DNA from: Desulfonatronospira sp.
GTDB taxonomy: Bacteria > Desulfobacterota > Desulfovibrionia > Desulfovibrionales > Desulfonatronovibrionaceae
Assembly: GCA_003554505.1 (NCBI GenBank)
Contig: PWGS01000236.1
Coordinates: forward strand, 1-17,311
Length of the DNA stretch: 17,311 bases
Direction of reading: 5' to 3'
Shown here: piece by piece, positions 6,125 through 14,418 of the stretch
How the letters are laid out: each line of letters begins with the position of its first letter
How positions within the stretch are numbered: the first letter of the stretch is position 1
The notes under the pieces: generated by a model
What the model was told of the DNA's origin: nothing
What the model saw: the letters and a program-made list of their open reading frames with translations, nothing else
The model's database searches: none
Translations under genes and position numbers: made by a program

Positions 6125-6895
6125 CTATTTATCCAAGATACTGAGTATTTCCGGACCATCCTTGGTTATGGCCACGGTATGCTCAAAATGAGCTGCTAAA
6201 CTTCTGTCCGATGTTTTGGCCGTCCAGTTGTCCGGCATAATCTCCACATGTTCGGAACCCAGAGAAAACATGGGCTCAATGGCCAGAACCATGCCTTTCT
6301 TCAGCGGCACTCCCGGCATTCTTGAAGGCACAAAATTGGGAATTTCCGGCTTCTCGTGCAGTCTGGCTCCAATCCCGTGCCCGACAAATCTTCTGATTAT
6401 GGAGCAGTTATGTTTCTTTGCATGCCTTTCGATGGCAGCGGAAATATCGTAAAGATCGTTTCCCGTCCTGGCCTGCTGAATACCTGCGTGCAGTGCATCC
6501 AGCGTGACCTGCATGAGCATCCCGGCCTCCTGGCTGATGTCGCCCACGGCAAAGGTCCTGGCGGAATCACCGAAAAAACCGCGGGATTGCACGCCCATAT
6601 CGATGCTCAGGATATCCCCCTCTTTCAGCTCGTCCTGGGTGGGGAATCCATGAACGATTACATCATTGAGCGAACAGCAAAGCGTATAAGGAAATCCCTG
6701 ATAACCCCTGAACGCTGGTCTGACATTGAATTCTTTGCACAGATCATTCGCCCTTTCCTCCAGGTCCATGGTGGAGATGCCGGGCTTAATGCGTGCTTCT
6801 ATATCATCCAGGATCCGGGCTACAATCTGATTGGCTTCTCGTAACAAAGAGATTTCATAGTCATTTTTTAAAAAAATGCCTCGAAATTTTTTCAA
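6125..6895 (-). CDS. map: Methionine aminopeptidase, type I
   Basis: The 256-residue product removes the initiator methionine from nascent proteins. The five pita-bread metal ligands are all visible: Asp99 (SIDMGV), Asp110 (GDSART), His173 (FVGHGIG), Glu207 (AIEPMF) and Glu238 (HFEHTVAIT); His82 in VIVHGFP fits the substrate-contact histidine. Length and the absence of an N-terminal extension mark type Ia. The start is TTG at 6895, three bases after the secY stop, giving the familiar MKKFRGIFLKN beginning; the Shine-Dalgarno (AAGG, nine bases) is modest, suggesting coupling to secY translation. The frame is the same as secY's, separated only by the TAG and a glycine codon. It ends in TAG. Confidence 0.97.
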   Translation of the reverse strand: MKKFRGIFLKNDYEISLLREANQIVARILDDIEARIKPGISTMDLEERANDLCKEFNVRPAFRGYQGFPYTLCCSLNDVIVHGFPTQDELKEGDILSIDMGVQSRGFFGDSARTFAVGDISQEAGMLMQVTLDALHAGIQQARTGNDLYDISAAIERHAKKHNCSIIRRFVGHGIGARLHEKPEIPNFVPSRMPGVPLKKGMVLAIEPMFSLGSEHVEIMPDNWTAKTSDRSLAAHFEHTVAITKDGPEILSILDK

Positions 6896-6898
6896 ACC

Positions 6899-8209
6899 CT
6901 AACGCCTTCCCTTAATCCTGGTCTTGGTCATAAGCCCTTCATAATGCCGGGATATCAGATGCGATTGAAACTGGGACATGGTATCCATGGCCACTACTAC
7001 CACGATCAGCAGGGCTGTTCCACCATAATAAAAAGGTACGTTGAATTCTTTAATCATGAAAACCGGCAGAACGCATACCAGGGAAAGATATATGGACCCG
7101 CTGAATGTCAGCCTTGACAGGACGGCATCAATGTATTCCTTGGTTCTGAGTCCCGGCCTTATCCCCGGGATGAACCCGCCCTGTTTTTTCAGATTTTCTG
7201 CAATATCTTTAGGATCAAATATGATGTCGGTATAGAAAAAGCAGAAAAACACAATCAGGGCCACAAATATCAAGTTATACACAAGGGATTCAGGCTGCAG
7301 ATGATTGGCCACCATTTCCAGAAATCCTGCCTGTGAAAAACTGGCTATGGTTGCCGGAAACATTAATATGGACGAAGCAAAAATTGCCGGTATGACCCCC
7401 GAGGTGTTCAGCTTGAGAGGCAGATGGCTGGTCTGCCCTCCGTACATCTTTCGCCCCATCATACGTTTGGCGTAATGTATAGGAAGCCTGCGCTGTCCTC
7501 TTTCCACAAACACGATAAAGAGCAGGACCCCGACAACAATGGCCAGGACAAAAACTCCCATGAACAGGGTCAGTTCACCTGCCGTGAAAAGCTGGTATAC
7601 ATTGGCCAGGGCCCCGGGGAAACCGGCAACGATTCCGGCGAATATTATAAGCGATATTCCGTTGCCCAGTCCTCTGGCTGTGATACGTTCGCCCAGCCAC
7701 ATGATGAATATCGTCCCGGTGGTAAGCGTAAATACTGTGGTCAGCCTGAAGGCCCATCCGCCTTCTATTACCACCGATGCTCCATCAGGACTGGTCATCT
7801 GCTCCAGGCCCACAGAAATGCCCATTCCCTGAACAAGAGTTATCATTACAGTGCCGTATCTGGTCCACTGGGTGATCTTTTTCCTGCCGGCCTCACCCTC
7901 ATCCTTTTTCCATCTGGACAGCGTGGGACTGACGACGGTCAAAAGCTGCATGATGATGGACGCCTAAATATACGGCATTATGCCCAGGGCAAAGATGGAG
8001 AAATTCTTTAGCCCTCCCCCGGCAAACATGTCAAAGAGCCCGAAGAGAGTGTGCTCTGCACCTGCAAAAAATTCGGACAGTGCCTGCCCGTCAATACCGG
8101 GCAGAGGGATATGCACCCCTATACGATACACGCCGAGTATAAAAAAGGTAAAAAGGACCTTGTTGCGCAGGTCCTTTAATCCCGATCCTCCAGATGCTGG
8201 CTGTTTCAA
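6899..8209 (-). CDS. secY: Preprotein translocase subunit SecY, interrupted by an in-frame amber codon
   Basis: The frame encodes 436 positions of a ten-span SecY, the channel of the Sec translocon, in its usual place after rplO. Residues 1-81 contain the first membrane span (about 17-36), HIPLPGID, and the plug region ending FALGIMPYI. Codon 82 (7966-7964) is TAG exactly where the conserved serine of PYISASII belongs. The same frame then continues ASIIMQLLTVVSPTL and runs, well conserved, through ERGQRRLPIHYAKR and the C-terminal GLRTKEYIDAVLSRLTF to a TAG stop. One base change (TCG to TAG) would explain it. The start is TTG at 8209, with AAGGA seven bases before it. An ATG at 7951 could give a 350-residue fragment lacking span 1 and the plug, but no good ribosome site precedes it. 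SecY is essential, so an error or a suppressed or reinitiated gene is likelier than a dead one. Confidence 0.93.
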
Positions 8210-10266: not shown

Positions 10267-10656
10267 TTACCTTCCCTCCCAGATCTCGCAGATAAGTTCA
10301 CCGCCGACATTTTGCTTCATGGCCTCCATGCCGTCCATTACACCTCTGGAGGTGGACACTATGCAGATGCCCAGTCCATTTCTAACAAGAGGAATCTCTG
10401 AAGCCTGGGAATACACCTTCCTTCCGGGCTTGCTGATTTTGCTCAGCCCCTTGATCACCGGCTTGCTGCCGTGATATTTAAGCCTTACCCGGATATTTCT
10501 GTCATCAGAAGTATAATCCTGGATAAAGCCCTTTTCGGCCATAATCTCGAGTATGGCTTTTTTGGCCTTGCTTGAAGGCATCTGCACTTCACGATGCAGC
10601 GCTGTATGGGCATTCCTGATGCGGGTCAGCATATCTGCAATGGGGTCAACGGACAT
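10267..10656 (-). CDS. rpsH: 30S ribosomal protein S8
   Basis: The 129-residue product begins MSVDPIADMLTRIRNAH and ends with the conserved RNA-binding motif SKPGRKVYSQASEIP, GLGICIVSTSRGVMDG and GGELICEIWEGR. S8 binds helix 21 of 16S rRNA; in E. coli it also represses the spc operon near rplE. No matching operator was recognised here by eye. An AGAGGAA ribosome site precedes the ATG. The gene is in frame with the upstream rpsN, but two TAG codons separate them. Confidence 0.98.
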   Translation of the reverse strand: MSVDPIADMLTRIRNAHTALHREVQMPSSKAKKAILEIMAEKGFIQDYTSDDRNIRVRLKYHGSKPVIKGLSKISKPGRKVYSQASEIPLVRNGLGICIVSTSRGVMDGMEAMKQNVGGELICEIWEGR

Positions 10657-11420: not shown

Positions 11421-11741
11421 CTAAAAATTCTCTTCACATTTTTTGCAGTAACGAACTTTCTCTCCGTCTGCCGTTACTTTAAACCCCGGTTTGGTGGGAT
11501 TGGCACAGGCATCGCAAACCACTCTTACGTTGGAGATATGCAGCGGTGCTTCAGCGTCCTTTATGCCACCCTGCTCCTGCTTGTAGGGATTAGGCTTTAC
11601 ATGTCTTTTGATCTTGTTCAGACCTTCAACAAGCACTTTGCCCTTATTGTGATATATCTTAAGCCCCTTGCCTATCTTGGTCTTATCCTTTCCGGATATG
11701 ATCATTACTTTGTCGTTCTGCTTGATTTTCATCCTGCTCAT
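11421..11741 (-). CDS. rplX: 50S ribosomal protein L24 with C-terminal four-cysteine motif
   Basis: The 106-residue product has an N-terminal KOW domain ([20 protein letters not shown], then [16 protein letters not shown]) typical of L24, an early assembly initiator at the exit-tunnel mouth. Near the C-terminus VCDACA (Cys76, Cys79) and YCKKC (Cys99, Cys102) form two CXXC pairs that probably bind zinc, as in many non-enteric L24 proteins. The ATG at 11741 has GAGG nine bases before it and lies one base after the rplN stop; ATG at 11732 and a longer upstream start are less likely. It ends in TAG. Confidence 0.97.
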
Positions 11742-11742
11742 T

Positions 11743-12111
11743 TTATAAAACCTCTGGTGCAAGAGAAACTATCTTCATAAAATTTCTGCCGCGCAGCTCC
11801 CTTGCCCCCGGCCCGAAAATCCGGGTTCCGATTGGTTCCATATTCTTATTCAGAAGTACTGCCGAATTGTTGTCAAAACGGATATGGGAGCCGTCATTGC
11901 GCCCGATTTCTTTTTTGGTCCGGACAACCACGGCCTTGTAGATATCCCCTTTCTTGACCTTGGCTCTGGGCATGGCATCCTTGACCGACACCACTACAAT
12001 ATCACCTATGGATGCATACCTGCGCTTGCTTCCGCCCAGCACTTTGATACAGGCCACGCTTTTTGCGCCGGAATTGTCGGCTACATCCAATTTGGTCTGG
12101 ACTTGAATCAT
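11743..12111 (-). CDS. rplN: 50S ribosomal protein L14
   Basis: The 122-residue product is canonical L14: [60 protein letters not shown] and the ending [13 protein letters not shown]14 faces the small subunit and binds L19 and the silencing factor RsfS. The ATG follows AAGGTGG by about seven bases. Upstream lies an unusually long gap after rpsQ that stays open in a frame ending in the overlapping ATGA, so rplN translation may be coupled to a short upstream peptide. Confidence 0.98.
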
Positions 12112-14133: not shown

Positions 14134-14418
14134 TTATTTGCGTTTGGCCTTGCTTTTCCGATCGCCTGCGTGGCTGTAGAATGTTCTGGTGGGTGCAAAC
14201 TCACCCATCTTGTGTCCGACCATATTTTCGGTGGCGAAAACTGGAATGAACTTCTTTCCGTTGTGTACAGCAAAGGTTAGCCCCACCATCTCCGGTGTTA
14301 TAGTGGACCTTCTGGACCAGGTCTTGATAACTTTCTTGTCCCTGGTTTCCTTGGCATTTTCCACCTTTTTCATCAGGTGATCATCCACGAAAGGGCCTTT
14401 TTTGACTGATCTTGGCAT
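14134..14418 (-). CDS. rpsS: 30S ribosomal protein S19
   Basis: The 94-residue product begins [20 protein letters not shown] and includes [40 protein letters not shown] and [21 protein letters not shown]19 sits in the 30S head with S13 and contacts the A-site tRNA region. An AGGAGA ribosome site precedes the ATG, in the 11-base gap after rplB. Confidence 0.98.

Follow-up and report, generated by a model that had tools for sequence, protein, structure and literature searches.

An in-frame TAG interrupts the secY gene on a contig of Desulfonatronospira sp. (17,311 nucleotides, analyzed over its whole length and referred to hereafter as the window), and the question raised by this locus is whether the codon is a real stop that the organism reads, evades or suffers from, or a base that the assembly has wrong. 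The second answer, an incorrect base in the consensus of a fragmented metagenome assembly, is considered the most probable one (roughly 0.85), and the evidence for and against it is set out below.

The TAG is present in the assembly on the minus strand at 7966-7964 and corresponds to codon 82, counted from the TTG at 8209-8207. The surrounding minus-strand codons are ATG CCG TAT ATT TAG GCG TCC ATC ATC ATG CAG, giving the protein context PYI-stop-ASIIMQ, and the frame of 436 codons is open elsewhere up to its TAG terminator at 6901-6899, so that the initial annotation was right to describe an intact frame on both sides of the stop, with no change of frame. The isoleucine beside the stop is presumably part of the pore ring. 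The frame matches PF00344 (SecY) at 390 bits (cut-off, 32.2), all 306 positions of the model being covered with one TAG inside, and the 15 residues on either side of the stop are identical to those of the orthologue in the congener G005. In a sequence alignment the TAG falls at position 87 of the E. coli chain 5abb_A, which lies inside helix TM2b if that helix comprises residues A79-P100, as given in a figure legend (PMC7023257). The secY and map genes share one frame at window positions 6893-6901 (TAG GGT TTG), map beginning one codon after the secY terminator; loss of that terminator would fuse SecY to Map. The coordinates of the features discussed are collected in Table 1.

Table 1. Features of the window discussed in the text, in window coordinates.
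Feature	Position	Strand	Remark
Whole secY frame	6899..8209	-	TTG start to TAG terminator, interrupted at codon 82 only; PF00344 match
In-frame TAG, secY codon 82	7964..7966	-	TCN (Ser) in 29/29 relatives read
N-terminal piece, 81 residues, up to the TAG	7964..8209	-	
C-terminal piece, 350 residues, from the next ATG	6899..7951	-	
Second odd secY base, Ala328 to Asp	7227..7227	-	Residue invariant in the relatives compared
S8 terminator lost, GGT to GGG	10278..10278	-	TAG in cleanly aligning congeners; frame longer by three codons
L24 Val27 to Gly, GGT to GGG	11665..11665	-	Error signature
L14 Val102 to Gly, GGT to GGG	11807..11807	-	Error signature

A search for secY in 61 genomes, including the genome of the window, gave a match in 54 (53 others of the 60 searched), and codon 82 was read in the 29 relatives with fetched loci (L003-L031). 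All 29 carry TCN, encoding the serine that had been predicted for this position. The nearest relative is the sister genome G001, whose SecY protein is 98% identical and whose codon is TCG, one base away from TAG, as expected of the single-base event originally proposed. The SecY proteins of other Desulfonatronospira metagenome-assembled genomes, such as that on PWFB01000048.1 (which matches G001), show the same 98% identity, secY-map gene order and frame, and differ in having the serine codon TCG where the window's secY has TAG. Serine also occupies the stop position in all seven proteins fetched as closest or chosen (P0001 to P0007) from the 4442 found at E ≤ 1e-150; one public SecY among them, P0006, has 626 residues, with a long internal segment repeated, which is probably an assembly artefact. 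One other genome, G057, has stops inside secY in the search table (three TAA and one TAG). In Desulfothermus okinawensis JCM 13304 (L086:8891-10144, the same contig number and position as the G057 match), secY runs out of frame for approximately 45 to 50 codons and has four stops between good flanks, probably as a result of a pair of insertion or deletion errors. A literature search on premature stop codons together with metagenome-assembled genomes, sequencing errors or pseudogenes retrieved nothing, which does not tell whether such a case is in print.

Comparison with G001 shows that codons 1-81 of secY contain no residue difference and 24 synonymously differing codons, and that codons 83-436 contain 5 residue differences and 157 synonymously differing codons. 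By these counts, both halves were under strong purifying selection until very recently; because both are so strongly constrained, a long-standing pseudogene is not supported.

The draft genome, in which the window is contig 119, comprises 1,639,232 bases in 306 contigs and is 82.6% complete. This genome seems to derive from the same kind of soda-lake study as one whose text describes HiSeq reads and a MEGAHIT assembly (PMC6146748). In a sample of 101 genes from the draft (25,918 aligned codons), the secY TAG was the only clean interior stop found. The alignments contained 11 stop marks, 10 of which were set aside by eye: one is the secY terminator, reached by the longer map frame of G005; others lie near alignment ends (L184 at 5967 and 890, L153 at 5761 and L185 at 2591, the last near the alignment start with fair flanks) or in frames of spurious or antisense appearance (L180, three marks in L185, and window position 14278). 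The control, G001, gave one mark, at an alignment edge, in 47 alignments (12,814 codons). Two further observations concern the polymerase genes: rpoC is broken at seemingly the same point in both assemblies (G000:C298 and C43 in this draft; G001:C194 and C35 in the sister), and a single frame of 1532 residues in G005 (C2:706639-710076; L284, L285 in part) matches parts of both rpoB (positions 467-1190) and rpoC (307-768) and is a diverged beta-beta' fusion polymerase beside normal rpoB and rpoC genes.

Evidence that this assembly contains wrong bases comes from a known signature. The strongest motif of systematic Illumina errors is given in a passage of Meacham et al. (2011; PMC3295828) as GGT with the T called as G, and the same one-sided T to G change after GG is found in this assembly and in the window; in PMC4787001 the direction attributed to Meacham et al. 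is the reverse (GGG to GGT) of the one given in PMC3295828. Nonsynonymous GTG to GGG changes were found at 28 of 1033 sites, whereas the reverse occurred at 4 of 991 (binomial p = 1.9e-5), and they were concentrated after a further G (21/460, versus 7/573 after other bases). The sister G001, with 1/468 in this direction and 1/473 in the reverse, lacks the signature. Synonymous changes of the same kind show no excess (35 versus 44). When this genome was compared with G005 in well-conserved contexts (16,711 codons), valine was replaced by glycine 16 times and never the reverse, and threonine by proline 15 times with 2 reversals; these are two strand readings of one change. In G001 (8,845 codons), Val to Gly occurred once. 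Contigs L184, L148 and L152 of the draft likewise show GGT to GGG changes, in this one direction, at conserved places. Because so many of the hits fall on conserved residues that they are hard to credit as tolerated mutations, most of them are taken as wrong bases. One of those in the window abolishes the terminator of S8 (Table 1), and this loss supports a base error as the origin of the secY TAG without altering the probability given to it.

The error load of the assembly was related to the TAG by counting radical changes at residues invariant in the congeners, using 27 genes (the 25 in the window, rpoB and rpoC) from seven congeners and leaving out terminators and codons covered by fewer than five genomes. 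This genome has eight such changes in addition to the stop, and G001 has none; the other congeners have 4 (G005), 3 (G003), 6 (G004), 12 (G006) and 22 (G002). G006 and G002 have longer branches, as their many more unique synonymous changes indicate, and one of the four changes of G005, at S8 codon 128, is located past the point at which the S8 frame of its relatives terminates. Five of the eight radical changes of this genome are Val to Gly; the remaining three affect rpoA (Glu to Val), L15 (Val to Glu) and secY (Ala to Asp). The excess has uncorrected p-values of 0.0096 against G001 alone, 0.39 (not significant) against G005 alone and 0.038 in the pooled comparison. A random base change yields a nonsense codon 0.165 times as often as a radical replacement, and therefore approximately one stop is expected from errors on such a scale.

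Counting against a base error are the change itself, which is C to A in the context TTTCGG and thus outside the GGT motif described in the cited passage of Meacham et al. (2011; PMC3295828), the lack of a C to A excess across the genome sample (122, versus 137 in the other direction), the non-significant p-value of 0.39 against G005 alone, the radical changes counted in G006, G002, G003 and G004 (although on longer or other branches), and the finding of only one clean interior stop. Because the change lies off the motif, the argument that this particular base is wrong is circumstantial. An oxidised-DNA artefact or a mutator, suggested by the Ala to Asp change in secY, is not supported by the same C to A counts. 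A base error had been one item on the list of the initial annotation and is now favoured, the biological options on that list being without support.

The strongest of the competing explanations, itself improbable, is that the TAG reflects a genuine nonsense allele carried by some cells, recent and lethal or nearly so, or else damaged DNA, and was picked up because few molecules cover the site. A one-base change off the error motif would suit this explanation, as would the otherwise full constraint on both halves of secY, which is expected of a very recent event. However, such an allele would end the only SecY found, the search for a second secY in the draft (82.6% complete) having returned none, and would be expected to remain too rare to set the consensus; the other error-like changes in the same window also speak against this explanation.

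Very little credence can be given to decoding of the TAG by an amber suppressor tRNA absent from the draft, for example a tRNA-Ser whose anticodon has changed. Under this scheme, which is itself very doubtful, the lineage would decode a TAG within the lateral-gate helix of its sole SecY, export would depend on suppression, and the end of SecY would leak into Map, since the TAG terminator of secY is in frame with map and suppression would fuse the two proteins. The gene does resemble amber-suppressed or pyrrolysine-coded genes in having an in-frame TAG with conserved flanks, but differs from them in that no CUA tRNA and no PylS were found and TAG is a normal terminator. The 22 tRNAs recovered from the draft are an incomplete set that lacks tRNAs for Phe, His, Ile and Tyr, and no CUA anticodon occurs among them. 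When the draft was scanned directly for a CUA tRNA pattern, 4 matches were obtained, compared with 11 in the reversed control; two of the four belong to ordinary genes for tRNA-Leu and tRNA-Arg, and the other two fall outside any tRNA. As far as the incomplete genome allows, then, a uniform TCN in the relatives read is accompanied by no suppressor tRNA. G003, G004 and G005 each have a tRNA-Ser(CGA), and a suppressor at the corresponding place would be invisible here, because the surroundings of the G005 gene have no substantial match in the draft. TAG still terminates 22 of the 76 genes sampled (23 of 77 among the G005 orthologues) and 10 of the 25 window genes as assembled, secY included, and this ordinary use lends no support to its reassignment as a sense codon.

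Programmed readthrough, or insertion of pyrrolysine at codon 82, is less credible still. PylS exceeds the cut-off of 178.15 bits in 3 of the 61 genomes (G027, G035 and G047; L056, L055 and L054), which belong to one genus of the same order and may use pyrrolysine coding, and the draft contains a selenocysteine tRNA (G000:C141:14916-15004, L053), which makes TGA recoding likely in this organism. However, the best PylS match in this genome reaches only 19 bits and none of the six congeners passes, which leaves pyrrolysine at the TAG unsupported in this 82.6% complete draft and its congeners; the 100 bases 3′ of the stop fold like shuffled sequences (z = -0.02), giving no RNA signal there, and the relatives have serine.

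Production of SecY as two pieces is scarcely credible: the ATG at 7951, five codons after the TAG, does open a 350-residue frame, but translation resuming there would start within the helix broken by the stop, so that both pieces would carry broken ends of the lateral-gate helix TM2b (as delimited in the legend cited above), and the 81-residue piece, which as a query matched 276 proteins, of which the best 120 were examined (full-length proteins not being candidates), has among those listed one member, on the window's own contig of 17,311 bases, the next most similar being at most 86% identical, with no recurrence of the same split on another contig.

A base error, in which the secY TAG would itself be one of the errors of this assembly, therefore remains the favoured origin of the stop. 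A real stop would be striking, since an essential channel would then hinge on the reading of a stop codon. For stops in draft genomes generally, one-sided, motif-specific changes at conserved residues should be compared with a sister genome before recoding is proposed. Most likely, the living organism makes an ordinary, complete SecY with serine at codon 82.
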